A stretch of DNA of 64,000 nt from [Phialemoniopsis] sp. UDSM-2020 (taxonomy: Eukaryota > Ascomycota > Sordariomycetes > Thyridiales > Thyridiaceae): positions 434,001 through 498,000 of the forward strand of contig JAEILZ010000008.1 in NCBI GenBank assembly GCA_018873225.1, written 5' to 3'. Shown here in pieces: positions 6,268 through 63,785 of the stretch; position 1 is the stretch's first letter, and each line of letters starts with the position of its first letter. A program made the translations under genes and the position numbers. The notes under the pieces were generated by a model. It did not search any database. It was not told where the DNA came from and saw only the letters and a list, made by a program, of their open reading frames with translations.

Positions 6268-9200
6268 TCATCTTATTAGCTTGAAAAGAGACTCCTTCTT
6301 TCGGTCCTCTTCATATCTGCTCACGTCGTACTTGAAAGGCTTTGCCGGGTCGTTGCCAAAGTTTGCTATAATTTGTGCCACTGCCGGCCCGATTCCCACG
6401 CATGGAAACACTCGGCCTTGCTTGAGATTCACGAAACCATCGCCTGGACCAAGATCAGCCAACGTCCTGGAGGAGGACTCATGTCAAGGAGTGACTCACC
6501 AACTAGCTCTCCGTTCTTGGTGAAGAAAATTGTTTTCTTGTCAGAGTCTATCCCACAACCCACCGTGTCCGGGTTCCGCCAGGTCGGTCCTTCAACGTCA
6601 TGAAGATCGTCGTTTCTGTCAAAGTTGAAGAGGCCGCCGTCATCGCTATGGTAACCCCAAGTCGGCCCGTTGCAATCTCTCCAGCCGGGCATGTTATTCA
6701 ACAATACATATTTGTTCGAAAAGCCTATTCCTACAGCTCTGCAATAGGGTTAGAAACTTTGTTTGTGTGTGCCCTGTCCACATAGAACTTACGTGGCCCT
6801 TCGCAGGGGCATCAAGATAGTGACTTCAAAGTAGTAACGTGTCGTGCCAAACGGGACAGGATGGTTCGCACGACACATTCCATAGCCCCAAGAGGCTGGA
6901 TCTGGAAAGTTCAGTTAGTTTGCTTCAGAAACAAAGTGTATTCATTGGGATTTCTTTACTAAGCCGCATCAATTCCAAGTCGTCGATAATGATGATATTC
7001 TTCCAGCCAACATCCCAAGCTGACGGCCTGTGTCCGATAAGCACCTCTTGCTTCGTGCTAAACTTGTCTAGCATATCATCCGTGTCAAATCGGCCCAAAA
7101 GCTGTATGATGGCGTGCTTTTGACACTGTATCGCTAGTGCGAGGGGGCTCCAGCCATGGTCGTCTTTGTCTGACGCTTTTTCGCCGAGGATTGCAAGGAT
7201 GTCTTGACACGCATTCAACGCGCCTACCTCAATGGCGATATCAAGGATTGCAAGCCCGACTTCGGACGCGGTCACGGGATCTTGTTGCACCAGATAGATT
7301 GCCAGGAGTCGATATGTCCAAGTTGCGAAAAGGCCTTGCTTTTGCATCTGTGCCACAGCGGTATGAAGCGGAGTGAGCCCGTCTTGGTCTCTCGCCAGAG
7401 GATCCGCACCATGCTCCACGAGCAATTCGGCGGCCCCGAAGTGGCCCCGACGGGCTGCTGAGTGCAGAGCTGTCCGACCGTTGCGATTAACCTGAGCAGT
7501 CAAAACGGCACCATCGCCGACCTGGAGAAGGAGCTTGACGATTTCATCTTTCCCGCGGGCTGCACTCCGGTGCAGAGGTGTATGTCCCGTGATGTCCAGT
7601 TCCATCAGAATGCTCCTGTCGCCGCCCTGGGTCTTTAGGGCGTCCAGCAACACGCGCACCACCTCTGCGTTATCTTTGTACGCTGCCATGCTGATTGCAT
7701 TGCGGAGTTGCTTGTCCTTCAGGGTGACATCGGCATTGAACTCCAGTAGCGTCTTGACCAGGTCCAGGTTTTCTAAATCAATGGCTTCGTGTAAAGCAGT
7801 CCGGCCGAGCACATCCTCGCCGTCGTTCACGTCAGCGCCTGCCTTGAGCAGCATCCGAGCAGCCAAGACGTGGCCCGCCCGACACGCCTCGTATAAAGGG
7901 CCTTGGCTGTCGTTATCCTGCTCATTGACGTTGGCTCCCTTGTCCAACAGAAGTTTCAGTATGTTGACTGGCGCATTGGCCCAAACAAACAGCGAATGAA
8001 GAGCCGTCTCTCCGATGCCGTCGCGGACATTGACGTCCACTTTCGGGTGGTCCAAGATGGCCTTAATGTTCTCATAGTGCCGGCGCCTCACCGCAAAGTG
8101 AAGAGCCGTGTACCCTTCGTCGTTGGCCACGGTTGGGTCCGCACCCCTGGACATTAGAAACCGCAGCTTGTCTGTTGAACCATCGTAATCCAAAAGGTTT
8201 TGCATTGGGGTTGTCCCATCAGAACCATCGATGTGATTGACATTTGCACCGTTGTTGACTAGAAGCTCCAGGCCGACCCAGTCTCCCCCACCCGTGCAAA
8301 CCATGATCAGCGGTGTAGATCTGTTCTCGTTGAGGACCTCGAGATCACCGCCGTTGTCAATGTACTTTTGCATGTAATGCAACAGACCGTATCGTGCAGC
8401 TACATGGATGGGCTCATCAAAGGTATCGAGACCCCTCCAGGTAAGCACCCGTTTCTGCCAGACCTTGAATGCGGTAGGGTTGGCATGTAGAAAAGTCTCT
8501 ATCTCGTTGTAGAGCGTTGCCCAGTCATCCTCGTTGCGCTCGTCTTTGGGCCAGAGCCTCTCTGCCTCTCTGACGTGGTAATGCCAGTGGGTCAGTTCAT
8601 AACGAATAGCGTCCTCGTTGTTGCGATCCTGATGTTCGTAAGGGGCAGCACGTCCGACCGATCCTGCATCAGTTGGAGCATAGACGACTGAATCCGTACC
8701 GTCATTATCCTTTGTCTGGGGCTCAACGGGCGCGACATCTGGCTTATCCGCGCCTTCGTTCGGGTTAGTAGCCTCGGGCTGTTTCTCAGCCTGATCTATC
8801 CCTGGGTCTTCCAGTGCTGTCGAATGATTAGGACCTTCTGGAATGGTTTCCATAGGCTGATCGCGCACAGGTTCCTGGTCCTGGGGTTCGTTTTCAGTTG
8901 GCTCGGGTGTCTCCGGCTCCTCAAGAATGGCTTCTTCCCTTGTGGCAGCACGAGACTTTTCATGTTCGTCCAGAATGCTCTTCGGCAAGAACACGCGCTG
9001 GAATGACCGACAATTCAAGTTCTTCAGGCAATGTATAGCCATGAACAGGTGACCTTCCTTTGGGCCAGCCTCGACTGTTGACAGAGCTCCGATGCGCTCC
9101 CGGCACTTTGGACAAAGCGTTTCTTCCTGGTGGTGGTGCTTTGCCTGACTAATGACAAAGTCTCGAACGGAGGCGTGTTGAAGAGATATATGGTCCTCTT

Positions 9201-11569
9201 TGTCAAACTTAAGGAAATTTCGACTAACCGACTTGAGAATATTGATCGAGTCTCTCCCTGGATGACTAGTCTCCTCAGAAATGTCGCTGTGTCTGGAGGC
9301 ATCTTCCGCCTCTTCGTGAAATGATTCGAGGCCGTCTTTGTCCGTAGCCTGTATCCCTGGCAAGATCGGCTCTTCGGTGTGACTGCTCTCAAGATGCCCG
9401 GTGTCCTGAGCATAAGCTGTGGTCTCGTTCTCGTCGGGCCTATCATCATCTTTGTCGTCATCATCTTCATCATCGTGATCGTCATCAGTGTCGTCGTGAT
9501 CATCAGTGTCTTCACCGTCGTCTGGTCCATCCTGGAATTTTTGTTCAAGCTCATCTGCAATGGGCTCGGCGGATATGCGACCCTCGCCACACACCATCCA
9601 CCTCAGAGCCACCAAAAGCATATGACGGACATCGGGATCAAGACTTTGAAGCTCCTGTTTGTAAAGCCCGGACATACCATCCGGAAACTGTTCCATGAGC
9701 TTCTTGAAACTCGTCATCACAGCCTTCGGTTGTTTGAGACTCTCAACTGCAAGACTGGCATCTATTTCCTGATCAGTCACATGTCACAAGCAGTACGCTG
9801 CTGGCCACTTACAACGGAACATGCCGTCGGCCTTTGTTGCAATCGTGGCGCTCGCAGTAGTCTTCTCCGACTTGCTGAATCGCTTGATCTTCTTCAACGA
9901 GCTCGAGATGTATGTCTCGACATCTTTGGCCGTACTCATCTTCGTAACGTCAATGGAGGGATATTTGTACAGCCTGTCACGGATGTCGTCCTCTGGTCGA
10001 CTTGATACCAAAATTCGAATATCGGCGTCTGTATCTGCGGTTTGGATGAGCGCGTCAACCAAGCCGTCATCCCAGTCACTGCACTCATCCAGCGCATCGA
10101 GCAGAATGTAAACGCGCCTTTCGAGAGCGCGGGCTAGGGCAATCAGTAGCGGTTGCATCGCGGTATTGACTTGGAAATCCTTCGCATCTTTAGTTCTTGC
10201 ATCTTTAGCAGCATCAACACATCTTCTCTTGCGGGCTTGAAAAGCTTTGTCCTCGGTCAGTTTGCTCTTCTTCAGAGGCTCCTTGCTGGCTTCGTTGAGG
10301 AGTTGCATAAGAAAATGCAGCATGATTCTGTTTCCCTTTTGCGTCGAATCGTTTCCAGTCTTGCAAAAGAAGTACAGAACGATCGGTCGCTCGTGGCCGT
10401 CCTCTGGCTCCTGTCTCTCAATCCACTCAACGACGGACGACATGAGAACCGACTTCCCGAAACCCGCCTCACCCATGATCCAGAGCAGACGGTGAGGCGA
10501 CTCAGCAAGCACAGGTGAGTAAAACTGCCGGAAGTTGTCGTCTTCGCGGATCCACCTGCAAGTTCCGGGGTGCCGCCTGTCAATGTTGTCTCGAAGGAAC
10601 TTCTGCGGCAGGTCCAGCTCAGCCGACGTGCCCTGCTTGAGCCATCGCATCTGTTCATTCAGGTCTTTCTCTAGGTCTTTCTTCTCCTGCGCCTCCTTCT
10701 GCTTGCCCTGTTCATTTTGGATGGCTTTGACTGTGGGAACTAGCTCCTCACTCGTGGACTGAAGGAAAGCGAGCACAGCTTTGGAGTCTTCCTGTGTCTC
10801 CAGTAGAATTTCCATTGCCGCTTCATGGAAGGCGACGTCCGCCATCTTGTGCAATTCGTCGCGCTTGGTCTCGGCATCCTTGAAGATCTCATCGAGCTCC
10901 TCGGAGCCGCCAAACATCACATTGAGCGTGCGACCTTCGGCACGGTTAGTGCCGTCCTCTTTCCTGTGGGGAAGGCGACTTACGGATACTGGAATGACCC
11001 AAGACCAACTTCCTAGTCTCATACGCAAACTTGAGAACAAGCGACAGGAGTGCCGGAATCTTCTCGAGAATCTTGTCGGCCAGCATCTGCACTTCTTCCG
11101 TGCCGGCCGGCAGCCTCCCAAGCTGGCGCTTGGCGTAGATCTCGCACACAAACATGACGTCGGACATGGTGTCGATCGAGTCGACAAGGAAACGGCACGT
11201 TTCAAAGTCCTTGAGGAAGCCCGCAAAGACCATGCGGAACGCCGACCACGCGTACGACGCCGTCTCGGGCGCGTAGCGCATCGCCTCGTCGCCCATCTTG
11301 AGCAGGTACTCTAGGCGCTGCAGGACACGCCCGAGTTTGAACTCGACGGGTTTGCCGACGAACTTGGCGCCGTAGGCTGCCGACGCCTTCTCTTGCGCCT
11401 GCTTGAGCGACTTGATCGTGTCCTCGAGCGTCGTGTCGTCGCGCAGGGCTTCCTTCCGGGCATCGCGTGCCGACAGCGAGGTCTCGAAGAGGACGCGCGC
11501 CTCGTGCCATAGCCCCGCGAGGGACTTTTGGTCGGCCACCGCCATTGTCGGCGGTGGGGCAGGGTTCAT
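6268..11569 (-). CDS. STAND (NLR-like) receptor: helical N-domain, NACHT, ankyrin repeats, SPRY
   Basis: Six exons (11569-10984, 10934-9813, 9761-6960, 6901-6793, 6738-6500, 6443-6268) join in frame to 1677 residues; introns are 49-58 nt with clear GT-AG ends and CTAAC branch sites. Residues 1-195 are an alpha-helical N-terminal domain like those heading fungal STAND proteins (Goodbye/DUF7708-like by style). The NACHT NTPase has Walker A GEAGFGKS near 350-357 and Walker B YILLDALDE near 472-480. A very acidic Asp-rich stretch lies at about 645-690, then about a dozen ankyrin repeats from about 1020 to 1490. The C-terminal 170 residues form a SPRY domain (NPASWGYGMCRANHP, RYYFEVTIL, VGIGFSN, FFTKNGELVG). 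Such proteins are the fungal counterparts of NLR immune receptors, governing non-self recognition and cell death. Ankyrin plus SPRY in one sensor is less common than WD40, TPR or ankyrin alone. Confidence 0.9.
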
Positions 11570-31360: not shown

Positions 31361-34300
31361 CTATGGGTTACAGGGATAATTGGGAGAGTCGCCGTAAGAC
31401 TTCCGCCCCTTGGCAAGGTTTGCCTTGGCTTCTTCCGGACCGCACACGGGAATGCGGATGAACCCAGCTGCCCTAACATCGAGCAAGTCGTCTCCAACTG
31501 CATCCTCGAGATTCTTCTGGGTGGGGTCGACTGCGTCCTTTGACGGGTCCATGATGTTCTTACCGCCATTCCTCTTGTACGTATTGACGGCGCTGTGATA
31601 CTCGATTAGTCAGTGGGCAGACAGTGAGTGAAACTGTATCGTGGACTTCTTACCCGACTATGAGGTCCTCAACCGTGACATGACCCCACTTGGGATTAGG
31701 GTTGTATATATCACCGATACCATTCAGCATGCTGAACGTCCACTGTAGCGTTGGCGCACAGCCTCCGTTGGATCCAGGAGTAGGCTCTCCACAAGCGTCC
31801 TGGAATTCACGTACACCGGCAAGGATGTAGGAATGGCCGTTGATGCATCTCCAGCCCAGGTTGTACTGGTCGGGCTTGACGTAGAAGTATTTTCTCGCGT
31901 CGATCTGACAGCTCTCCCCGAAATCGGCGATTACGGGCGTCGGCTTGTTAGCCGCCCAGACCCCCGGAATCGCTGCAGCATAAAATGCGCGGTCAATGTG
32001 CTGTCCAGCGTTGAATGTTGCGGTCTGGTTTGTGTTCGTGTTCTCATTCCATGAAGGCGCGGGGTTGTCCGGCATGCCGTATATCATCATGCCGTCCCGA
32101 AAAAGAGCGGTCAGTTTGTCGATACTCTCAGGAGTTCCATCGAAGATTCTCCTCACGAATGAGTCTGTCTGTTGTTGCCAAAGATTGACCGTCTTGTCCA
32201 GGAGTCCACTAAAGGCGATCTCTTCGCGAGCGTCTCCGACGGCCCCCCTGTCGCAGAGAAATCAGCTGGATGTTAAAGTTCAAAGAATGCCCTTTCACTA
32301 ACTTCAATGCCTCTTCTGTAACGGAGAAACCGATATCCATGAGGCCTGACGCCGCCTCCTCCCAGATTTCCTTTTTCTTTCCGGTCAGATCGTTTGCAAA
32401 GAAATGTTTTGCCATGAGAGCTGACTGCGAGTTAGTTCCGAGTCGTGCGCATCCTACTGTCCAAAGGGTGGACAGGATGGGAGTGGGTCTACCTACAACC
32501 GCCCATAAACTTTGATAAACCTATGCCAAGAGGAATTTGAATTAGGGATAGAAAGAGGTCCAGAAGATCGGTAAGATCGGTAGGCTTTGGGGCGAAAGTG
32601 TTGATGAACTCGTCCTTGTGACCTTGTAGTCGAATCCCAGCAAGGCCCAAGTTAGCGTGGTAGTTTTTCAGCATCTAGAGAATTGGAGATTAATGGGTAT
32701 TCTGACTCGAACAGCAAAGCGCGACTTCTGAAGTGAACAGGCAAGTATGAGTCCTCAAAAGATTTACCGTATGGAGTGCAACTATGGAGTTCCATATCTC
32801 GTAAGCGCAAGCGCCTGTCCGCTGCTCGAGAGCGTCGTCTTTGGTGTTATGCGTCGCGCACAGACTTATCGACTCGCAATGCGTTACGGCTGCAAGGTCA
32901 TTGCAATGCTATCGCGGTTATTCGCGATGGTCAGTCTTCTTGCGTGATCGGGATCAGACAAAGTTTGGTTTGAGATACTTGCCGAGTCTTGGCCCCAGTG
33001 GAGAAATTGGCTAACGATCTGAGAGAAGATTGGTTTGACCGACCGGGGCAAATAACAACCTTTCCAGACTCTAATTGTGTCTTTCCAGGCTGCATCGCAT
33101 TCCATAGCCTCCCAACGGCGCTGTGGTGTATGATCTGAGGGCGTCCCGACTTCATCGATGTTGCACTGGATGTTGACCCAGTTGCCAGTCCGTGTGAGAC
33201 GATCGCAGGCAACGGGCTCACCCACTTGCACATTGTGCCTGATCAGATCCCAGGTCGTTCCCGGATCTCGATCACCTGTACCATAACTAGGAGGATCATG
33301 GAACTTGGCTAGATCGACCGCCCAGTCTATTGTGCCCCCTAGATTGTAGCGTTTGTAAAGCTGTGTGCGTGATTCCTTGAGCGCGTCGTCCATGTACGAG
33401 ACCCAGAGATCCTTGTCGACCTTGATCATCGAGTCGCTGTCGGTATCAAGCCAGGTGCGCCCGCCAATTTCGTTGATCTCGGCGTTACTGAGATAGCCTG
33501 CTGTGCCCGTGCATCTTCCCTTTCGAGCATAGGACGTACGCCGATCGCCCGTGAAAACACAATTTGGACCAGTGCAAGAGGGATCAACCATCTGGAAACT
33601 TCGACCGTAGCTACTGACGCCGACAAGGACCTTGTTGGAGGGAACACCAGCCTTTGTGATCATAGTCAGAGCATTCATTGTCTCCGTGCGGTTGATGTGA
33701 CTCCGTAAACAATTTCCGGTCTCACAACCAGGACTGGCCCACTTGTTTCCAGCATCCCACTGGCCGTGAAGATCGTACGTCATGTAGACGATGTAATCCA
33801 GTAACTCTGACATTGCCTTGATGGGGAATTGCTTAAGATACCAGAAGGAAGCCGGGGCAGCGATCGACAAAGACTTGCCCTTGGGTAACTTTGCGCGAAG
33901 TAGAGCTAGGAGACGTAGGTAGTCCAGTGCCTCGGAAAGGTCCCCGGGTGGAATATCTGGAATGTCAGGTGCCTGTTTGGTCCGGTCAGTAGAGGGTTGA
34001 AACAGAGGCGAATAGAGAATGAGCCGTACCGAAGGGTATTCCCAGTCCATATCAAGGCCGTCTAGACCATTATCCACGACATACTTGACCAGGTTGTCTG
34101 CCAGTTTGTTGCGATTCTCGGCTTTAACGCCATTTCTGAGGATAGGATAGTTCGGTGCTTCGGCCGAGAATGCCCAGCCGCCAAAGGAGATGATCCGTTT
34201 TGGACCACGAAGGCTCTTGAACTGCTGGAATTGAAACTCAGCGAGCACGTTCTCTTGATAGATGTTGAAATCATTGTCGATCATGCCAAAAGCAAAGTGC

Positions 34301-36261
34301 ACATGCGTATAGGAGGGGTCGATTTGCGAAGCATCCATGTTCAGACAATCTCTTCCCAGGTTGAAGCCCTCGAAGTAACCGAGCTTGATGAACTGGGACG
34401 GCGGAGAACTCTGCACAATGGTCATGCCGCAGTTTGAGATGCAACCGTAAGTGTCCTTCTTAGCCGTTCCAGGTGGTCCCGTATTGGTATCGATACAGAA
34501 GTCGGCCGTCGTCCCGCACTGGCCCCACTACATCGATGCTCGCATGTTAGCGATGTGTGTCACGACCCGTCTTCCAAGACGGGTACCGGGTGCTAGGAGT
34601 AACTTACGATATTGCAGCAGGCATTGAGAGGACAAGGGTTGAGCTTGGCCCAGTCCCGCGATGAAAACCCACTTGGTTTGACAGTGCCAGGCTTCTGGGG
34701 GCCACAAACCGCATTGCCAATGGACGCAGGGAAGGGTGGTGTGCCTTCGCTAAGGCATAGCCAGTTGTCGGGCCAGAAACCGTAATCACATCCATTCCAT
34801 GCTGTGAGTGAAATAATTAGCCCGTGAACCGCAGAGACTCGATATGTAGATATAAAGTGTATTGATTGGTCACCTACCCCATGTGTCTTTGTTCAGACTT
34901 TCCAGCTCCTTTACGGTGAGGCCATTGGACATAGCAATCTGTGAGCAAAAATCACCCTTCTTGATCTGGTAGGCGAAACAAGTACCGTCGGCATTCTTCT
35001 TGGGGCGAATGTCGGGCAGCTTGCCGGATGTACAGCAGACGCGTTGGCCAGGCTGTAGGGTCGAGCAAAGATTTGAGGCAGTGTTGTACTTGTAGAATTG
35101 CGCAGCAGTGAGTCCCTGCCCGCACCGAGAAACAAGCTTGCCACAGTCGTCTCCCGACTCAACTGTGGAGGTGCGACAGGTGCCGTCGGGATTGGGCTTG
35201 GGTTCGGGCGGGACTGGCAACGTTCCAGAAGTACAGCATACCATCTGTCCGGGTTGAAGCGTGGAACACAGATTGGAAGCCGGATTGTACTTGTAAAAGT
35301 CTTGTGCAGTAAAGCCATTGCCACATTTCGAAACCAAATCCGCGCAGCCATTGCCACTCTTGACTTCGACAGCTCGGCAGTCGGCACGTGTGCTTAGCAG
35401 GCCCCTGACCGTGAAGTTGCCAGATTGAAGACCAGTGTTGTTCGCCTCGCCCTTTGTGGAGCTCACAATTGAAGAGATGGCACGAGTCGTGGTGTTGATT
35501 GTGGTCATGCCGAGCTTAGTGGTACTGGCGTAGGATGACGTATCGACGCAGCTGCCATTGGACCACTGGCGAACAGCATCATGGACCGTGGAGAAGCTTG
35601 GATTGGCGGCGGCGATGAGACCAAAGATCTCGTTACTGCTGCGTCCTTCACAGACCTGTATTAAGGCAGCTTTGGAGTCGGCAAGACCAGTCGTAGCCAA
35701 AGCCTCGATGAAGGGGTCAAAGAGTGCGTTTGCTATGCTGGGATTGAGTAAATCGGCACCGACATACACACCAACAGTCGTGCCTGATACGGTTGCGAAC
35801 AGGATTGTGTGGTTGTCTGCCCGGTGTCCAGTTTGCAAGAAACTTTGCAAGTGCTCGACACTCTGTGTCGCGAGTTTACCCCCGAGTTCGTCTTCAGATC
35901 TGGCGGGGTTGGCTGCCAGCTCTGGGACCACCTGGCCAAACAAGTTTGCTGATGAGAATGGAAGTAAAGCTTGCCCAGAGGCAGCCAAGATGTCGAAGTC
36001 GTTTGCCCAAACATTGCAGGCCCGCACATGTTGAAGTGAAGTTACGGGAAGATTGACTGAAAGCGATACGATCAAAGGTCTGCTGCAGGCTTGGAGTTGA
36101 CTAGCCTTGGCAACAACGGTCCAATTTGACGTCTCGAGGCCAGTCTCCGTGCATGTAGATGGACACAGATCTCTCCCCGGTATGAAAGCATCCACACCAA
36201 GGCGACTGAGACCGGCTAGGCCCACCAGTCCGAGGGACAGTTGTGAACGTAGGCCGATCAT
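31361..36261 (-). CDS. killer-toxin-like GH18 chitinase with LysM and hevein-type chitin-binding modules
   Basis: Nine exons (36261-34878, 34801-34608, 34527-34030, 33972-32979, 32889-32768, 32674-32497, 32420-32303, 32247-31654, 31592-31361) give 1437 residues. Start is the ATG at 36261, followed by a signal-peptide-like stretch. The order is: an N-terminal region of about 290 residues; two nearly duplicate LysM-like modules (about 295-345 and 362-412) each ending VCCTSG; a third LysM (428-478); a type-1 chitin-binding domain (NPCPLNACCNIWGQCG); a GH18 domain with the catalytic motif DGLDMDWE, acid E689; and a C-terminal extension of about 480 residues. This is the plan of subgroup C chitinases, related to the alpha/beta subunit of yeast killer toxins, used on fungal cell walls. 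The splice choice at exons 6/7 is the weakest point. Neighbours are a LysM protein and a DUF7136 protein. Confidence 0.9.
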
Positions 36262-36980
36262 GATAGATGGTGCAACCAAAAAGCAAGTGAGAAGGGGCCA
36301 AAGGAGTGAGTTGAGCTGTTAAGCATGACAGACATAGCGCAGTGACCCAATCTTATCCATCTCCCTTTCCATTATATATATTGAGCAGACGCCATGATTG
36401 GTGTGCCCATTGGGCAAGTATCCAGATACGCGCAAAGTCTTGCACCTATTTTTGACATATCTGCTTGATTCGCTCAAGTTACGAGAGTGCTCTTTTACGT
36501 AGCATCCTCCATGATCATGATGATTTATTGCGCCAAGGTGTTGGTTGACGAAAATCACAGGATTGAACCGGTCCGGTCGTGATCCATGGGTCACCTAAAA
36601 TGCAAATTTCGGGAGAATCTTGCTTGGCATTGGTAGATGTAACAATAAACAATGCCAAGGTTTATAGCTCGGATCTCGTCGCCAAACTTCCCTACAGCGC
36701 GGCTGACGCGGGTTTATCAACTTAAGGATGGCACTGACAGGGGTCTGCATTGACCGGAAGTGTGTCCGATCTGCCGTAAAAGGGGTCCGTGAGAATTTTG
36801 GGGATCGTGGCTACTTTAGCCAACTGCAAGCAAATGGTAATGCCGACGAAACCACTATCTGGCTTTGCCGAACACACAAATTGCAGGCACAAGTTCTCAA
36901 TCTTCTTTTCCACGACCGTTTGAAGAACCACACGAAGATCTTGACTGATTGTCTGATTGTCTACAAACTACACTGTCGCC
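36262..36980. promoter_or_regulatory. divergent promoter between the chitinase and DUF7136 genes
   Basis: 719 bases. A TATATATA box at 36373-36380 lies about 112 bases upstream of the chitinase start. Divergent arrangement suggests shared control of the two chitin-related genes. A GTCCGA copy occurs at 36764. Confidence 0.45.
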
Positions 36981-37868
36981 ATGCGATCGTATATTATTTT
37001 CATTCTCATACAGATACAGCTGTTCTGGGCTTCGCACGCGGAGCAAAAGCTGCCCGCTGACCTTCAGATCGACCTCATCTTCCCTCGCAATGAGACATAT
37101 GCCCCGACGCAGTACTTCCCAATTGTTTTTGGAATACGAAATCTCGATGCAATTTGGCCATTGGCCATGTTGCTGAAAGTCATGGTCAAAAGTGTGACTT
37201 GGAACACAATGGAGATGGACGAGGATCGCTTCAACAAGACCTTCGATCGATCGAGCGACCCTCACGGCATATGGCACACTCAATATCTCGACATAGGTAC
37301 ACCGGAAATAAACCAGACCACCGGTGGCATGCCGGGCCAGTACTTCTTCTACATTGCCTCGGTGAATATGACGAATGGAACAACCGATCAATACGGGATC
37401 AGCTGGAACCTGGCACTTAAGCATCGATGTCTCGCGAACAATACAGACCCAAGAAAGGACGATGGTGGGAAAGGCTTCTTGAGCCCGCTCGGCGGCCTCG
37501 AATTCAGTACAGCACCTGGTGCACCGCTCCCCGATATCGAATCCATTGTCACCTCTTGCTCTCGACAGTCAGAGGGCACGATTGAGGCTATTCGTATGAC
37601 CGACATCCGGACGACATTTGAAGAGGAAGAGCGGTGTCCTGTCATAGACGAAAACGTCATGGGGAACCAGTGTTGGTTCAAGGAATATGCAAAGGAGATA
37701 TCGGCAAATGTCTCTTCAACTCTTCTCAAGCGGATGCATTGCGATGAAGGCTCCTGGCAGACAATCACGGCGCCTTGTCTTAAAAGCAATGCCGCAACTT
37801 CAAATAGCCCGATGTATTGGATGAACTGGGGAATAGCCACTGCTTTCTTTATCTCCAGTCTACTGTAG
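36981..37868 (+). CDS. DUF7136-type secreted or GPI-anchored surface protein
   Basis: Single-exon gene of 295 residues from the ATG at 36981. The first ~20 residues (MRSYIIFILIQIQLFWASHA) are a signal peptide, and the C-terminus is hydrophobic (WGIATAFFISSLL) after a small-residue stretch (NAATSNSP), as expected for a GPI anchor. Between them are several N-glycosylation sequons (NET, NKT, NQT, NMT, NGT, NVS) and paired cysteines. The pattern LIFPRNETYAPTQYFPIVF with FGIRNL is the start of DUF7136, a fungal domain of unknown function often encoded next to killer-toxin-like chitinases and LysM genes. Its role could be cell-wall protection or presentation of the chitinase; this is inference. Confidence 0.8.
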   Translation: MRSYIIFILIQIQLFWASHAEQKLPADLQIDLIFPRNETYAPTQYFPIVFGIRNLDAIWPLAMLLKVMVKSVTWNTMEMDEDRFNKTFDRSSDPHGIWHTQYLDIGTPEINQTTGGMPGQYFFYIASVNMTNGTTDQYGISWNLALKHRCLANNTDPRKDDGGKGFLSPLGGLEFSTAPGAPLPDIESIVTSCSRQSEGTIEAIRMTDIRTTFEEEERCPVIDENVMGNQCWFKEYAKEISANVSSTLLKRMHCDEGSWQTITAPCLKSNAATSNSPMYWMNWGIATAFFISSLL

Positions 37869-38908
37869 TCAGACCAGCTAGAAGCTTACTAGATAATATG
37901 AATATGCTCTCTATCAAGTCATGTGGTGTGTCAGTGGTCAACTCATATCAGGAGCTGTTGACTTGAACACCCTTTTCCCTCTCTTCTTTCCCTTTAATTT
38001 TCATCTGAGCCCTTTTACTCGCGTAAGACCCACTCCCCTTCTCGTTCTTGGTATGCACCCAAAAGGTGGTTACACCGGCTAGTCGAATCTCTTGGGAGGC
38101 CATAGCTCTGTGTTCTGGTTCGAGCCTAGGTCTTCGTCCGTTATTCGTGAATAATTGACTGCCACAAAAGGTATGCTGTTCGGTACAGCATGCCCTTCGT
38201 ACACTGGCCACTAATGTTTGGCTTCTGGGTCAACGACGGACGAGATTTCTTTCCTCTGGCAAAATCTTATGATCGTGCTCGGCCCGACAATGTTGAACCT
38301 TGGTTGACTAATGCTGTTGGTTCACTCGAGCTTTGATTTCTTATTGAGCCATCTTGGCAGACCCGATGAGAAGGTTCATTTTAGCCTTTTTCTTGTCGTT
38401 CGCCGGCTTGGCGACGCAGGGATCAGATTTATTTGAGTCAACTCCGTGAACGGAATCGTCCCGGTTACATCGGCTCTGGCGCATTTGCAAGCGACTTCGA
38501 TAAAGGGCGTCGGCACAGGCCGTGCTACGATAGTAATGAGCATCCTACATGGGGCTCGGTGTCCATCTACGTCTACGACCTCGGCTTGTCATCCTGGGAC
38601 TTCCGTTAGTGGTCCTGAACAACCTGATGTTGCATTCCAATAGCGGTTCAACTTTCATTGAGTTGTAATTAGCAAAGATCTAGACGCAATGCAATTTCCG
38701 AGGTGCAGAAACATCATGATTTGTGTCTTGGACATTTCTTGTGAGACTATTTCCTGCTTCGTCAACACCTGAAAGGCGTGGACGTAAGACAGAATACTCT
38801 CCCAGCATTCTTATATAAATCGAGTGTAGAAGCGCACTCAGGCAATCTGTCTCGATGAGTATCGCTTAATTCCCTCGGGCAACTGATATAACCCATCTGT
38901 CTCTCGCA
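37869..38908. other. intergenic region, promoter of the LysM gene
   Basis: 1040 bases without a convincing gene. Its 3' end is the promoter of the LysM gene, with a TATATAAA box described separately. Confidence 0.5.
38812..38819 (+). promoter_or_regulatory. TATA box of the LysM gene
   Basis: TATATAAA lies 90 bases upstream of the LysM protein start at 38909, a normal distance for a fungal TATA box and short 5' leader. Confidence 0.5.
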
Positions 38909-40014
38909 ATGGCGCACTTGTCTAGTATCTTTGTCATTACCCTCTTGGCATCGCAATGTACAGCTGCGATTGTCCGGCGGTTTGACACCCCAACGCCGAC
39001 CTATGAGCACGATCCTGCCTCTCCAGCTGACTGCAGCCTGTGGTGGGATGCCGACGATGGCCTGAGCTGCGACACTGCACTTTTACTTGCGGACATTTCG
39101 ATTGAGAGACTGGCTAAACTGGTAAGCTCGTTCGCTTATATCAATGTACTTTGTTAGCATCGAGCTGAGATACTGATTCATGGTAGAACCCCTCGACTCA
39201 AAGTTGCGACGACTGGAAGAACAACTGGTCCTACTGTATCAAGGCGGATTCAGTGTCGCCTCCTGCTACCACCCCGGCGCCGACTTCAGCACCAGCGACG
39301 ACCCAGCAAAGCACAGTCACTACCACAACCACGACCCCGACCAAACCGGACAACGGCGTAAAGACTCCCGAGCCCTTTCAGCCCGGTATGGTTGACAACT
39401 GCAACCGATTCTACCAGGTTGCGCGCGACGAGACCTGTACGATTATTGCAGGCAAGGTTGGCGTGACTGTTGCCCAGCTCGCTCAGTGGAACAAAGAGAT
39501 CGGAGGCACGGCTTGCACAGGGATCTGGGCAGGTTACCACATCTGCACTGGCGTAATCGGCGGGTCACCCACACAGCCAGAGCCAGCGAACCCTACGCCG
39601 CAACCTGTTCAGGACGGGATGGTGGACAATTGCAATCGGTTCTATCTCGTCCAGGGTGGCGATACGTGCCAGGCCGTCGCGTCTAAAGCTGGCGTCACAG
39701 TCGCCCAGCTCACCCAGTGGAACAAGGGCATCGGGGGTGCCGCTTGCACGGGCATGTGGGCGGGTTATTATCTCTGCACTGGGATTGTCGGAGGCTCCCC
39801 GACACAGCCGCCGACAAACACCACCCCGCAGCCTGTCCAGGAGGGCATGGTGGCCAACTGTAAGAAGTTCCATTTGGTCAAGAGTGGGCAGAATTGCGAC
39901 TCTATTTCACGTCAATATGGTATTTCTCTTGGCGATTTCCTTCGCTGGAATCCTGCCGCTGGATCTAATTGCCAGGGATTGTGGGCAGAGACTTATGCTT
40001 GCGTAGGCCTCTAA
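38909..40014 (+). CDS. secreted protein with one degenerate and three typical LysM modules
   Basis: Two exons (38909-39121, 39187-40014) give 346 residues. A signal peptide covers about residues 1-19. A first divergent LysM with cysteines (DCSLWWDADDGLSCDTALLL ... NNWSYC) spans the intron. A Thr/Pro-rich linker follows, then three LysM units whose beginnings repeat as GMVDNCNRF or GMVANCKKF and which end in ICTGV, LCTGI and ACVGL. The linkers repeat GGSPTQP and PQPVQ, showing recent internal duplication. There is no catalytic domain. In this family such proteins bind chitin fragments, shielding the fungus's own wall or hiding chitin from hosts. Proximity to the LysM-containing chitinase suggests self-protection during mycoparasitism or wall remodelling. 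That is inference from known clusters in Trichoderma and relatives. Confidence 0.93.
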
Positions 40015-49725: not shown

Positions 49726-52694
49726 TCAGATGTAGAACATCGAGTGCTCAACACGAGGATTAATTACGACCCTGGAATGGTCAAGGGCAACCTCCTGTGT
49801 ACCGCCTGCGGTCGACGCCGCGACCGAGCTGTCAGAGGGATCGTACAGGTTGCTCAGATAGCGCCTGGCTCGCTCGCAGACAATGTCTGCGTAGTAAGCA
49901 GGTGTGCAGAGGCTAACGGCCTTGGTAGCGCGGCCGAAAATGTAGCACATGCTCTGCGTGAGGTCCTCGAGTTTGTCGGCAGCATCCTTCCCGTGCCTGG
50001 CGCGGAAGATCTCATCGTGGACCACAAAGTAGTGGCCGGGCCGGGCGGTGCCCTTGACAACTGCGTGCGCCTGTAGGAAGAAATCCCAGTTGCGGGCTTC
50101 GGTGACGCCTCGGTCGACGATAGTACCTGGCATGTTGTTGGAAGACCGATCTGCATGCTTTTCGTGGGCTGGGTAGAAACGAGTGTGATGTCGCTTGCCG
50201 ACGACGATGATGGTGAAGTTTGGAAGTTTCTGTGGTCCGTACTCCTCCTGACAGGCCTGACGAAGTGAACGCAGCTCTTGCTCGATGACTTGGCTGTATT
50301 GGCCCTCAGATACGCCATCCCGATAGACAAGGATGTTCTCGGGGAAGAACTGATTCTTACCTTTAGTCTTCCAGAGGTTGAGGCAAGACTTCAGCATGGA
50401 GGTGAGACCAGCAACCATTTCCTGGCGAGCCTTCGGCTGGATGCTTAGCTTTGCAGGCCACTGGGCCAAGTGCCGATCCACGCTTGCGACCATGCCAGCA
50501 ACACTGGGTGCAGAGTCGCGAGAGCCTGGTGAAGGGTGCGTAACGTCGATGCCGACGACCATGGTTGTACCATTTGAGATCAGAGTCTGCGGTGAGTTGA
50601 TCAGATGATTGCGGCCGCCCAGTTTCAGGTTGAACTTCATCGCCACATTGGCATAGTAATCAGCCTGGGCGCCAGCAAATTTCTTACCGACCACGCAAAC
50701 GGTGAGAACTCCATGTACGACGTCGCCAAGATACTTGACCCGGTTGTACAGCGCTGCATCATTATTGGGCAAGATGACCAATAGGATTCTCAGATTCGAT
50801 GCTGACAACATGACCTTGTCGAGCTCTGGATCGTCGACGTTGGCAAGTGTCACGTCTTTGATCCCCCTCTCAAGGAGATCGTTCGGATTCATTCCGACAG
50901 CTCTGAATGCATCCTGGAAGCGACCAATGTCGTCCTCGAGCCTCGGATCCCTGTAGGCTGGTCTGAACATAAGGTTCAAGCACGCCCATGCACCAAGGTG
51001 TGTACCTTGGGCAAACCTTTTGTTCATAAGATTCCAGCTCCCGAACTTGCCCGGGTTCAAAGACTTCTGGTACAATAAGTCCGGCGCCTTGAGGATTCTG
51101 CCTTGTACGGTAATCAATTCCTGCGAGGCTTGAAACCCAAACTGTCGCAGTACTTCATTGGGTTGAGGTCTGAGTCCAGCTGCTCCGAGGCCGTCGACGA
51201 TGGACTTTGCATTTTGCGCCGGCTTTCGGACAGCAAAGCCTATCATGGCATTCGTCTGACCAGGGCTCAGTCTGGTCCTGGCTAGTTGTCCCGGGATGAT
51301 GGAGCACACCTCAAGAGGGAGGTAAGAGGGATGGTCTCGATTGCCGACGTTAACAACCGGGAAGTCATTATTGCATGGGATATTGTACTCTTGTGATGAA
51401 CGTTAGTTTAAAATACATAAGAGGAACTCCAACTTTCCACTTACTCTTGAGGAAATGCTCGTAGACGCTGATGTAACGTCCTCCGCTAGCTGACGATGAT
51501 GGGGTAGGACCTTGCCGAGGTCCAGATGTGCCGCCCTTCTTGCCCTTGCGACCCTTAGGCTCCGTGGGCTGAGCTGCATTCGCGTCGTCTATCCAGAACT
51601 TGACATCCTTCGGGCCGGCACCGTACATGCTGACCTCAGGCGGGTGCGGACGATCTCGGCCGTCGTCGAAAGTTGCCAGGCCAAAAATCGTCTTCGGTCG
51701 ACATATAGCCTGACCATTGCTGACAATTGGTTTAAGATGGGTTCTGGTGACACGCAGCTTTTTGAGAAAGGCATTGAGCTTGTGCATGTTCCAGCCTCGG
51801 TCCTGATGGGCAAGAACAAGACCAACAAGACCGCGTTTCTTGAGGTTGTTGGAGTGAGTGAAAGTCTCGTAGAACACTCCATGGCTCACATTGACGTTGA
51901 CAAGCAGTCGAGCAGTCGCTAGCCTAACGCTGGAGAAGAAGCCTCGAACTGCCATCAATCCGTCGCCGAGAGACCTCTGCTCTTGTCCATGAGCGATAGA
52001 GAAGACCTTGCTAGAGCCGACAGTCACCAGATTTCCCGAGAACCGAGCTTCGTGCTTCAGAAGAATGTTGAGTGCTTGAAGCATTGGGGCTTGGTCGGTA
52101 TATGTGGTTGACGGGTTGGTAGAAGTGAGGTAGTTCATCAATTGCGACATCTCCAAGGTGTTCGTGTACTGCACCTGAACTGTGTAGACTCTGGCGTTTT
52201 CACGAGGTTCGTCCTCTCCCTCCGCTCGATAGGGCAAGCTGATTTGCAAATCATCCTGCGGAAGGCGCTTGCGGGATATTAAGGTAGACTTGAGATCCGA
52301 CATGGTGTCCCCTTCGAACGCAGCCAACTCTTGCACCTGCAGCAGAAGCTTGACAATCTGAGAGAGCTTCTTACCGACTGCATGTGCCTGCGGAGTGACC
52401 GTGATACTGTACTTGTAAAGGATGAGGCCTTTGGGAGGGTTGATCAACTCAACGTAATTGGCCCACAATACAATTTTTTCGCCTCCAGTGCCGAAGCTGG
52501 GTCGCCGTGGGAAACCAGACGACAGGCTGAGGGATCCCAGGTCTTTAGTGAGTGTGGCTGTCTCTTTCTCGGAGACACGCGGTGCAGGGGGGATAGTGTT
52601 GTTAGGCCTATATCACTACGTCAGTTCTGATCTCGTCATGGTGAATAATTTGGAGACAATACCTAAAGACCACCTTTCCACCCTGATAAGTCAT
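49726..52694 (-). CDS. Argonaute protein with slicer-type PIWI domain
   Basis: Three exons (52694-52663, 52607-51445, 51389-49726) give 952 residues; the first exon encodes only 10 residues (MTYQGGKVVF). Domains in order: N-terminal and ArgoL1, PAZ (about residues 270-400, including SVYEHFLKKYNIP), MID, and PIWI. The PIWI active site shows D680 in VGIDVTHPSPG, D756 in VYRDGVSEGQY and H851 in RPGHYFVVHDE, with a glutamate near 722, so the slicer tetrad appears intact. HHTRFYP and the C-terminal hydrophobic MFYI end are as expected. It binds small RNAs and cleaves complementary transcripts in quelling or meiotic silencing. It may be a QDE-2- or SMS-2-type paralog; I cannot tell which. A poly-Gly/Lys insertion (GRKGKKGGTSG) sits in the PAZ-proximal part. 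Confidence 0.95.
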
Positions 52695-60179: not shown

Positions 60180-61121
60180 ATGGCAACCGAACTATTCCCC
60201 GGCTTCAGCCGTCAGATCTTCCAAACCCCTGATGGGGTGTCTATCTTTGTTCGTGCAAAGACAGAGGCCACGAAGCCTCCACTGTTACTCCTACACGGAT
60301 TTCCCCAAACGCATGTCGAATTTCATGCCATTGCTCCATCCTTGTCGCCGTATTTCAGCCTCGTCCTCATGGATCTTCGCGGTTATGGCGCCTCGTCAGT
60401 GGCCCCGAGCGTCAGGGGCTCCGGCTATTCCAAACGGCTTATGGCCCAGGATTGCACATTCGTGATGGATCGACTCGGCTATGACAAGTTCAGCGTCGTG
60501 GGACACGACCGAGGCGCGAGAGTCGCATACCGTCTGGCTTTTGATCAGCCGGACAGGCTCCTGAAAGTGGTTGTTGTGGATATCATCCCGACGGCCGCCA
60601 TGTACAGCGGATTCGGCAATATCAGTGCCGGTCTGAGGGCATATCATTGGCTATTTCTTGCACAGCCTGATCCCTTTCCCGAAACAATGATCAAAGGGAA
60701 CGACAAGGGCAAAGTATTCTTGGAACATACACTGGCTTCGTGGACGAAAAAGGGTAGCCTTGACGACTTCACCGAGACAGCACTTGAGGAGTATCGAAGA
60801 GCGTACTGTGATCACGCGAGAATCCACAGCACTTGCGAGGACTACCGCGCTGGGGCGTATATCGACAGAGTCTACGATGAAGAGGAGCTCAAGTCAGGAA
60901 ACAAGATTGATACCCCGATGCTGGCAGTCTGGGGTTCCGCGGGGTTATTTGCAGGGGCTATGGCGGAAACGGGTACGGAGAGCCCACTGGAGGTCTGGAA
61001 GAAGTTCGCCCGAGATGTACGTGGGAAGGGCCTGAACTGTGGGCACTTTGTGCCCGAAGAGGACCCCGAAGGCCTGATTGTAGCTCTGCTAGAGTTTTTA
61101 CGTGAAGGTGTGAAACAGTGA
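60180..61121 (+). CDS. fluoroacetate dehalogenase-like alpha/beta hydrolase
   Basis: Intronless gene of 313 residues. It has the alpha/beta hydrolase pattern HGFPQTH, MDLRGYG and a nucleophile elbow GHDRGAR. Comparison with bacterial fluoroacetate dehalogenases (the Rhodopseudomonas RPA1163 type) places every described active-site residue: nucleophile D110, carboxylate-binding R111 and R114, acid D134 in VVDIIPT, general base H289 in CGHFVPEE, and the halide pocket H156-W157 in AYHWLFLAQP and Y222 in CEDYRAG. Such enzymes hydrolyse fluoroacetate to glycolate and fluoride. Epoxide hydrolases lack this HW...Y set. Its neighbour, 479 bases downstream, is an FlK-like thioesterase, which strengthens the organofluorine reading. 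Substrate is still inferred. Confidence 0.85.
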   Translation: MATELFPGFSRQIFQTPDGVSIFVRAKTEATKPPLLLLHGFPQTHVEFHAIAPSLSPYFSLVLMDLRGYGASSVAPSVRGSGYSKRLMAQDCTFVMDRLGYDKFSVVGHDRGARVAYRLAFDQPDRLLKVVVVDIIPTAAMYSGFGNISAGLRAYHWLFLAQPDPFPETMIKGNDKGKVFLEHTLASWTKKGSLDDFTETALEEYRRAYCDHARIHSTCEDYRAGAYIDRVYDEEELKSGNKIDTPMLAVWGSAGLFAGAMAETGTESPLEVWKKFARDVRGKGLNCGHFVPEEDPEGLIVALLEFLREGVKQ

Positions 61122-61600
61122 TCCATTATTGTAGTGTCAATATACACTCCTTCTGGGTAATCTTCTTGGATGTCATAGCATGCAGCTTGAGGCATGTTTC
61201 AATAAAAAAGTCGTGTCCGTAACACGGCATCTTCAGCAAGAATAGCGGCGATCTCTAGGGAGTACCGTCATGATGTAGGGCAACAGATTCAATGTCCGTC
61301 TGATTCGTGGTAATTACGTTCGTTGTCTTCGATGTCCGAGGTATCCACTCTCAATCTCCGATTTAGACGAATGTCCGAGGCTAAGGGCCGAGCGAAGTTC
61401 CGCCTCATCCATCTCCAACTCAGGACGGAAAAGGAATTTGCTGTCCATTTCCAAGACAAGTATTTGTGTTAAAGTGAGTCCTAGGGACTACTTTTCGCGT
61501 AATAGGAAGTGGTCCAATCGAGTGGCGCTCATTATTGCTGACCTTTTTCCTTATACCCCTATCTTGAACTACGCTGCTTAAGATCCACCCTGTCAAATCC
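61122..61600. promoter_or_regulatory. promoter of the FlK-like gene with phased ATGTCCG repeats
   Basis: ATGTCCG occurs at 61292, 61332 and 61371, spaced 40 and 39 bases; the last two extend to ATGTCCGAGG. They lie 230-310 bases upstream of the thioesterase start. Reverse-strand reading gives CGGACAT, a CGG half-site. Confidence 0.45.
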
Positions 61601-62014
61601 ATGGCCACTTTAAGTCTCGAGCCAGGTGCAAAGACCGCTGCACAGCTGTGTGTCAAAGAATCTGACCTCGCCATTGCCATATCGGAGGACTCGCAAGATA
61701 ATTTCCCGAAAGTCTTTGCAACAGCGCGCCTAGTTGCGTTGATGGAAATTGCGAGCGCTCGAGCCCTTTCCCCACAGCTCAAGCCGGGGCATCTGTCCGT
61801 CGGAGTCAGTATTGATATGACACACACTGCTCCTACACCACCTGGGGCCGCAGTCACTGCGGAGGCGACGTACAGGGGAATGGAAGGCAAGCTTCATGTA
61901 TTTGACGTTATCGCCAAGGATCGGGGCGGAGAGATCGGAAGGGCCGTTCACAAGCGGGCAGTTGTGGACGTGGAAAGGCTGGAGAGAGCGGCGGAGAAGA
62001 GGGTTGCTACATAG
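61601..62014 (+). CDS. fluoroacetyl-CoA thioesterase (FlK)-like hotdog protein
   Basis: Intronless gene of 137 residues, the same size as Streptomyces cattleya FlK (139). The diagnostic segments are FPKVFATARLVALME and MTHTAPTPPG. FlK's catalytic residues Thr42, Glu50 and His76 correspond to T41, E49 and H75, and the gate phenylalanine Phe36 to F35, each shifted by one. The C-terminal HKRAVV also matches. FlK hydrolyses fluoroacetyl-CoA, preventing its conversion to toxic fluorocitrate. A general hotdog thioesterase acting on another small acyl-CoA remains possible because the family has unstudied members in fungi. It lies between the dehalogenase-like gene and a carboxylate-type transporter. 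Confidence 0.85.
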   Translation: MATLSLEPGAKTAAQLCVKESDLAIAISEDSQDNFPKVFATARLVALMEIASARALSPQLKPGHLSVGVSIDMTHTAPTPPGAAVTAEATYRGMEGKLHVFDVIAKDRGGEIGRAVHKRAVVDVERLERAAEKRVAT

Positions 62015-62105
62015 ACAATAGAAGAATACATATTGCTCATGTCTTGAATGCTATTCTGCCAAACAGTGAGACACTCGCTACTCGCGCTCACAGCCCTGTA
62101 CAATA

Positions 62106-63785
62106 TCACAGCATATATCTGAAGCCCTCCTTGCGCTGGTTTGGGTTCTGACGATCTGCTAATTGCTCCAAGTGCCTAGCCTTGTTTACGAGATCCCTGT
62201 GCTGCTCAAATGCCACTGCCTCGTCCGCTGCCAGCTTCTTGTTCTCCGCGACCAGGCTTTGCCTGAAGATGAAGTTGAGCAGAATCGTGGCCCCATACAT
62301 GGCGGTAGTGATACCGAAGGATGTGCGAAATGACGGCCCAAAGCTCGTCGGCCAAATGTACGAACCTGCAACGGCACCGAGCTGCGACACTGCGTTGACG
62401 AAAGAGATGACAACGGCTCGCTTAGCGGGCGGTCGCGGAAAAGATGACGACAACCAGGGGAACATGATGATGTAACCAGCATACGAGGATGTCATGAAGA
62501 AGAGCGACAGGTACCGTGCGGCGATATGAGTCGGCGCTGTGGCCATGGCGATGATGAAGCCGACGATACCGAGGGCGAGCGGCCATATGTGGTGAAGGAA
62601 GCGTTCCTGCTGGCGATCTGAGTGCCAAGTGTTGAAAAGCGCGACCAGGCAGGAGAAGACCCATGGTGGGGCGGCAAGAAGTAGTGTCTTTGTGTTGTCG
62701 TAGCCAAGAGTCTTGGTGAGCGTCGGGAAGTACGTGGAGAAGGACGTTCCGCAGATCATGGCTGTCTGAGACAGGCCGAGAAGGTAGAGCTTCCAGTCGC
62801 TGAAGGCTAGCTTGGCGCCGTGGTACCACTTTTCGTCGGCAGAGTCGACGTCCACTTCGCCGACATCTTCGAGCATGCGCAGCTGGGCGACTTGGATCTC
62901 TTCCTCTGTGAAGTGCCGCTTGGTGTTGTTGGGGAAATCAGGAAGAATAAAGGGCGAGATAGCGGCAACCGCCATGGTGATGGCTCCCTCGACGAAGAAA
63001 AGCCACCTCCATGCTCTGTGGCCGAGCATGCCTTCCATGTTCGCCAGGATGCCAGCGGCGATGAGGCTTCCGAAAGCGTTCGAGATGAGGTTGCCACAGT
63101 AGAAGATGGCGATGCGGAGCGACAACTCTTTCTTGGTGTACCACTTCGAGAGAAGGAAGAATGAGCCCGGTGAGAAGGCAGCCTCCACAAGACCGATGAA
63201 GAAGCGGCAGGCCACGGCCCCAGAGTACGACTGTACGATGCCAGTCAGGAGAGAAATGAGGCCCCAGACCATCATGCACGCGGGCAAGTATAGGGACGGG
63301 CGGCCAATTTTGTTCTGCGAATCGGAAGAACCCGGATTAGAACTTCACTGCACAGTAGACAGTCTATCGAGTTGACTCACCATGATCATATTGGAAGGGA
63401 CTTGGAACAAAATGAAACCCGCAAAGAGAATCGACATAACAGTTGCAAAGTCCGTGTCGGTCATGTTGAGATCGGACTGGAATCCTTGAAGTCTTGATGG
63501 AAGTCAGTACACATCATATCCGGCACCTGGTTAGTTCCTGTGCTATGGAACGTACCGAGCTGCAGCCGCGTTGGACCGGTCAATGTAGTTGAGAATGTAG
63601 ATGACTACGAGGAGGGACATCTTCGCGTCGAGCTTCCAGACGAGCGATCTCTCGACTTTCTTACGGCGCTCCGTGCCGAGAGCTAGAGGGCTCGGTAGAG
63701 CATCGACGTGCTCCGCCTCGACGTGACCAGCAACGGCCATGGTGTCCTTCAGGGCCGCTGACGGGACAGCAGGGTCGCCAGACAT
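62106..63785 (-). CDS. MFS transporter of the anion:cation symporter (allantoate permease) family
   Basis: Three exons (63785-63556, 63492-63381, 63314-62106) give 516 residues. About 12 membrane segments are visible. Family signatures include LLVVIYILNYIDRSNAAAAR in the first segment, QVPSNMIMNKIGRPS, CRFFIGLVEAAFSPGSFFLLSKWY and the loop RIAIFYCGNLIS. This group carries organic anions such as allantoate, nicotinate and other carboxylates. It is transcribed towards the FlK-like gene, with 91 bases between stop codons. Together with the dehalogenase-like and thioesterase-like genes, an organic-acid transporter would complete a fluoroacetate uptake or export function; this is inference. The gene is complete. 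Confidence 0.92.

Follow-up and report, generated by a model that had tools for sequence, protein, structure and literature searches.

In a 64,000-nucleotide window of the genome of the fungus [Phialemoniopsis] sp. UDSM-2020, a gene for a probable haloacetate dehalogenase lies beside a gene for a thioesterase that was probably acquired horizontally. The window, by which we mean the whole stretch of DNA analysed, corresponds to C10:434001-498000 of a 44.18-Mb genome in 11 contigs. We propose that the two enzymes together clear haloacetate-type acids, a reading to which we assign a probability of roughly 45%. It draws on the ~48% identity of the hydrolase to the crystallised fluoroacetate dehalogenase RPA1163, on its eight active-site residues, on an adjacency with a chance probability of about 1e-4, on the pairs in Caballeronia sp. 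S22 and in a Pyrinomonadaceae metagenome-assembled genome (locus L065), on a lid phenylalanine in the thioesterase and on reports of fluoroacetate degradation by Fusarium. The pair comprises the following features:

60180..61121, plus strand: single-exon gene for a 313-aa alpha/beta hydrolase of the fluoroacetate dehalogenase type (intact open reading frame, ORF; PDB 3r3u, E 2.3e-82; 139/292 residues identical to RPA1163)
61122..61600, plus strand: spacer of 479 bp between the dehalogenase and thioesterase genes
61601..62014, plus strand: single-exon gene for a 137-aa hotdog thioesterase of PF22636 (FlK Pfam family), which our trees place in a different subfamily from Streptomyces FlK (intact ORF; PF22636, E 9.6e-28; PDB 3kv7, E 1.2e-21)

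The hydrolase matches the fluoroacetate dehalogenase of Rhodopseudomonas palustris (RPA1163, PDB 3r3u) over residues 4-307, i.e., over its full length. The active-site set named in an initial annotation of this DNA (D110, R111, R114, D134, H156, W157, Y222 and H289) is present in full and aligns with RPA1163, with which the eight residues (DRRDHWYH, comprising the Asp/His/Asp triad, two Arg and a His-Trp-Tyr halide pocket) are identical. Fold family, catalytic triad, carboxylate arginines and halide pocket are common to the window enzyme, RPA1163 and the haloacetate dehalogenase H-1 family, and several Fusarium relatives among the best 120 matches listed are already annotated as haloacetate dehalogenase H-1. 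Unlike RPA1163, the window enzyme is fungal and has two additional copies with the same residues in its genome, where three of 17 dehalogenase-like matches have E < 1e-50. Both of these paralogues, on contigs C4 (204/309 residues identical to the window copy) and C1 (108/296), carry all eight residues, and no more than 2 of the 120 best homologues lack the residue at any one of the eight places. As the residues are common to paralogues and homologues, they mark the family and not this locus. The enzyme class is convincing and this is very probably a haloacetate dehalogenase, but nothing sets the window copy apart from its relatives. Elsewhere in the genome, two tandem distant alpha/beta hydrolase matches lie close to a contig end (G000:C7:5907-8219).

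The thioesterase belongs to the Pfam family of FlK from Streptomyces cattleya (PDB 3kv7), its best solved relative, with which it shares 45 of 97 aligned residues. It is the only match in the genome above the family cut-off; one weak match below it lies at C1:1.02 Mb (E 0.002). The initial annotation had pointed to F35, T41, E49 and H75 and deduced fluoroacetyl-CoA as the substrate. These residues are indeed present and aligned with FlK, as are the equivalents of FlK T42/E50/G69/H76/R120 and F36, but they do not support the deduction. We compared 226 PF22636 rows in four sets, in which a few genes are counted twice: the 120 best relatives, 81 rows from bacterial loci of the subfamily, 4 plasmid rows and 21 others. 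T41, E49, G68, H75 and R119 are nearly invariant across them. The threonine at FlK place 42 is found in 120/120, 80/81 (the other row has a gap), 4/4 and 21/21 rows, and the exceptions at the remaining places amount to one E (119/120), two R (79/81) and the gapped row. These sets take in proteins encoded beside AMP-binding, enoyl-CoA hydratase and HAD hydrolase genes on Caballeronia and Variovorax plasmids. As the residues are near-invariant across such unrelated operons, they indicate the family rather than the substrate, and we rejected their conservation as proof of fluoroacetyl-CoA specificity.

Among the residues cited, the lid phenylalanine alone (F35; FlK F36) discriminates. It is kept in FlK, in 114 of the 120 best relatives and in 75 of the 81 bacterial-locus rows (75/80 of those with a letter there); none of the four plasmid rows has it, and only 3 of the 21 others do (10/21 being gapped), these three belonging to the subfamily of the window protein. 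We presume the numbering of the FlK lid and catalytic residues, including the place of a second lid phenylalanine, F33, and its role. Counting back from F36, Q32 of the window protein stands opposite F33; the compared segment of the FlK chain begins after that place. Hydrolysis of a small acyl-CoA is the most likely activity of the thioesterase.

By analogy with characterised relatives, Asp110 of a cytosolic dehalogenase would attack the alpha carbon as the nucleophile, His156, Trp157 and Tyr222 would accept the halide, and a water molecule activated by His289 would free glycolate. The dehalogenase would do most of the clearing, and the thioesterase would mop up the haloacyl-CoA formed by acetyl-CoA synthetase.

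To place the thioesterase, we built two phylogenies. In a tree of 70 rows, which has few columns and four long-branch rows (L126, L102, L103 and L129), FlK groups with PF22636 members of other contexts and the window protein falls in another subfamily (100/97). Eleven fungal or fungal-like proteins group together (92/89); a metagenome protein considered as a further fungal-like member (P0011) falls outside it. A tree of 42 rows, from which L126, L102, L103, P0011 and 24 others were left out, recovers the split (100/99) and places the same 11 proteins in one clade (98/91) among bacterial proteins. A joint clade of the fungal proteins and FlK is rejected in this tree with an approximately unbiased test p-value (p-AU) of 0.0038, for a group that was named after the first tree had been seen and with only 97 FlK residues compared. 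On both trees and this test we rejected FlK orthology for the fungal thioesterase, and the phylogenies show an ancestry separate from that of FlK. The simplest reading is that a bacterial gene was transferred into fungi, so that the thioesterase would have been horizontally acquired.

The adjacency of the two genes would be surprising under random placement: the chance that the sole PF22636 gene above the cut-off lands within 500 bp of one of the three dehalogenase copies is ~1.2e-4, uncorrected for the pair having been picked after it was seen. The same pair in two bacteria, Caballeronia S22 and L065, further argues against a chance neighbourhood. In L065 (499-2130), a subfamily thioesterase and a dehalogenase lie 359 bp apart, in a record with a coverage of 1.29 in which the dehalogenase reading frame is broken. 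An aconitase-like gene, by our reading of its sequence, lies ~4 kb beyond the L065 pair. It is nevertheless conceivable, if rather unlikely, that the window genes are two accessory genes that were independently acquired or retained in a gene-diverse region and act alone, the thioesterase being of a general short acyl-CoA type. The eclectic surroundings in the window fit this, as the ORFs scanned nearby contain PhyH, GNAT, protease, Argonaute, AAA, chitinase and LysM domains among others. The neighbours of the bacterial relatives point the same way. When the recurrent neighbours of bacterial subfamily loci were clustered and 10 representatives scanned with Pfam, most were unrelated genes (YbeY, a RadA-like ATPase by our reading, a Na/Ca exchanger, SRP54 and ribonucleotide reductase) and one was of an acyl-activating type. 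The clusters comprise a block from bacteria of Arcobacter type, in clusters of 12 to 16 loci, one cluster of SRP54 type (5 loci), one of AMP-binding/acyltransferase type (4 loci), a ribonucleotide reductase block (3 loci) and others of 3 loci each. A weak overlap between the fungal species named for the two families, among the matches listed, also favours independent genes.

Several observations weigh against a joint role of the two enzymes. First, linkage of the families is rare. A sample of 80 bacterial loci of the thioesterase subfamily, with flanks of up to 10 kb that were often shorter, contained a dehalogenase in the flanks once (L065); a weak, partial match in L031 (28%, E 3e-5) was left out of this count. 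When the genomes of 50 of these 80 loci were searched in full, 48 lacked a dehalogenase at E 1e-30, the two exceptions being the genome of L065 and G013, where the dehalogenase is on a different contig. Across the phylum to which the L065 genome belongs, a dehalogenase was found in 9/247 genomes, two of which also have PF22636, adjacent in one. PF22636 was present (E 1e-12) in 82/250 Burkholderiales genomes; 80 of these 82 were examined and 50 had a dehalogenase. No Burkholderiales genome of these 50 showed both families within 5 kb, with the proviso that some pairs may be split by contig breaks; ten had both on one contig, the smallest distances being 16.1, 21.8 and 22.3 kb. Nor did any of the plasmid-borne PF22636 members inspected (on 4 of 11 plasmids) have a dehalogenase beside it, and an alpha/beta hydrolase neighbouring the member in Methylobacterium did not match the window dehalogenase at E 1e-3. 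Linkage as opposed to scatter had been proposed as a check of the initial annotation; run in bacteria, it yields the pairs in L065 and Caballeronia S22, with the families otherwise mostly unlinked. The pair is thus uncommon among bacteria, though not confined to a single case.

Second, Fusarium oxysporum is the sole name common to the lists of both enzymes among the matches listed, and no contig was common to the listed relatives of the two; as the lists hold the best 120 rows each with few names per 90% cluster, they are weak evidence on overlap. The two other dehalogenase copies in the genome, with the same residues, have no PF22636 gene above the cut-off nearby, and the fluoride exporter lies elsewhere (the only two PF02537 matches in the genome adjoin each other at C1:2.05 Mb). 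Third, the window thioesterase lies outside the FlK clade, and some of its relatives stand in other contexts. Four loci have a related gene within 2.4 kb, the L032 copy of which has AMP-binding and acyltransferase domains. In L102 (5998-10389) and L103 (5935-10411), from Caballeronia and Variovorax plasmids, the PF22636 gene heads an operon common to both, with genes of the AMP-binding, enoyl-CoA hydratase, HAD hydrolase and ABC-substrate-binding types after it. Both L102 and L103 fall on the side of the window protein in the 70-row tree, a placement that, if right, speaks for ordinary acyl-CoA work; the contexts of these relatives hint at the same.

A published bacterial system bears on a stricter version of the proposal. 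On plasmid g of Caballeronia sp. S22, a dehalogenase gene is described as adjoining a gene annotated by the authors as a fluoroacetyl-CoA thioesterase, in a cluster that also includes CrcB and an aconitate methyltransferase (PMC11812338). The window resembles S22, as known from this published description rather than by sequence comparison, in that its dehalogenase adjoins a PF22636-type thioesterase, and differs from it in that the fungal fluoride exporter gene is on another contig, whereas CrcB is described as part of the S22 cluster. We scanned a selection of 34 distinct ORFs, counting the three focal genes, across the window plus 10 kb beyond it; this selection contained no fluoride exporter, no other fluoro-gene and no methyltransferase. 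FlK differs from the window protein in its subfamily and in having Phe where the latter has Gln (at the presumed place of F33); the window protein also has no fluorometabolite genes among the nearby scanned ORFs. The pairing had been put forward as a new defence module, and the published S22 description weakens that novelty.

A two-route fluoroacetate module is possible. In its dedicated form, the dehalogenase would destroy fluoroacetate and the thioesterase would be truly selective for fluoroacetyl-CoA, which we consider unlikely. The two families are adjacent here, in S22 and in L065, and the lid phenylalanine is conserved; set against this are the position of the thioesterase outside the FlK clade, catalytic residues that do not discriminate, and the 48 of 50 subfamily-bearing genomes without a dehalogenase. 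Of the two-route interpretation in the initial annotation, what stands is a dehalogenase-type enzyme with a full active site next to a thioesterase of the FlK Pfam family; the substrate meaning of the thioesterase residues and any close kinship to FlK do not, and linkage is rare.

The third gene is a major facilitator superfamily (MFS) transporter gene that is convergent with the thioesterase gene. Its splice model is as follows:

63556..63785, minus strand: MFS transporter exon 1, with the start codon
63381..63492, minus strand: MFS transporter exon 2
62106..63314, minus strand: MFS transporter exon 3 (MFS_1, E 3.4e-30); membership in a unit with the enzymes uncertain

These three exons, separated by two introns, encode 516 aa in the sole model yielded by the splice rules applied. 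The three neighbouring genes of the initial annotation are thus borne out, as two intact ORFs and an MFS gene; its transporter was correctly placed with the end at 63785, where the gene starts, but is not one ORF. The MFS gene (62106-63785) has a patchy distribution. Its protein is 76% identical to relatives from Thozetella and Sporothrix, 72% to one from Saitozyma, 56-65% to those of Kwoniella and 52-54% to those of Fusarium, and a metagenome protein is 83% identical over 75% of the length. Among the matches listed, the nearest named relatives are from Fusarium for both enzymes and from Thozetella and Sporothrix for the transporter. As the MFS relatives differ from those of the enzymes, the three genes are without a single common distribution.

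Enzymes of the fluoroacetate dehalogenase type are described as often using chloroacetate too (PMC11022551), and some relatives of the MFS protein carry the annotation of tartrate or pantothenate transporter. The locus could be a module for a different substrate, such as chloroacetate or some other activated small acid, imported by the MFS protein. We regard this as quite improbable: activity on chloroacetate is described in the same source as often lower than that on fluoroacetate, and the fungi with the closest named relatives of the MFS protein (Thozetella, Sporothrix and basidiomycete yeasts) do not appear among those named for either enzyme in the matches listed.

A hint about compartments comes from the relatives of the thioesterase. 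An N-terminal extension is present in eight of the 14 fungal or fungal-like thioesterase relatives listed (P0001, P0004, P0005, P0008, P0013, P0014, P0017 and P0111) and in none of the other six. All seven extensions examined contain Arg/Lys (2 to 7), and six of the seven are devoid of Asp/Glu. These extensions appear to resemble mitochondrial presequences, although some starts may be misannotated. The dehalogenase start coincides directly with its conserved domain. In the window, the eleven in-frame codons directly 5' of the thioesterase ATG read TTLLKIHPVKS, with no ATG. A search, under the splice rules applied, for an additional 5' coding exon that might encode a targeting peptide gave four spliced candidates, none of which was convincing as a presequence. 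It would be bold, and we think it distinctly improbable, to see here the first gene-level fungal fluoroacetate defence unit split by compartment, in which the dehalogenase would act in the cytosol and the thioesterase, recruited from a bacterial subfamily other than that of FlK and bearing a mitochondrial-type presequence in some related fungi, would shield citrate synthase from fluoroacetyl-CoA.

The window contains further genes of interest. An Argonaute gene with ArgoN, ArgoL1, ArgoL2 and Piwi domains is located at 49729-52612 on the minus strand, a fungal NLR-like gene at 6928-11310 encodes a NACHT/NPHP3_N domain and, after it, long ankyrin repeats, and a GH18 chitinase-type gene lies close to two LysM-domain ORFs at 32887-40011.

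Degradation of fluoroacetate was reported for Fusarium solani and F. oxysporum decades ago, and the F. solani defluorination gene is tabulated as not determined (PMC5485738). Our search of the literature on fluoroacetate, dehalogenase, thioesterase and fungi, which covered few subscription journals, returned no recognisable report of the pair in a fungus. Proteins from fungi and metagenomes have been given the name 'fluoroacetyl-CoA thioesterase' by copying of the Pfam label FlK, which alone is no evidence of that substrate. The locus described here provides a testable gene-level candidate for the defluorination long known in Fusarium.

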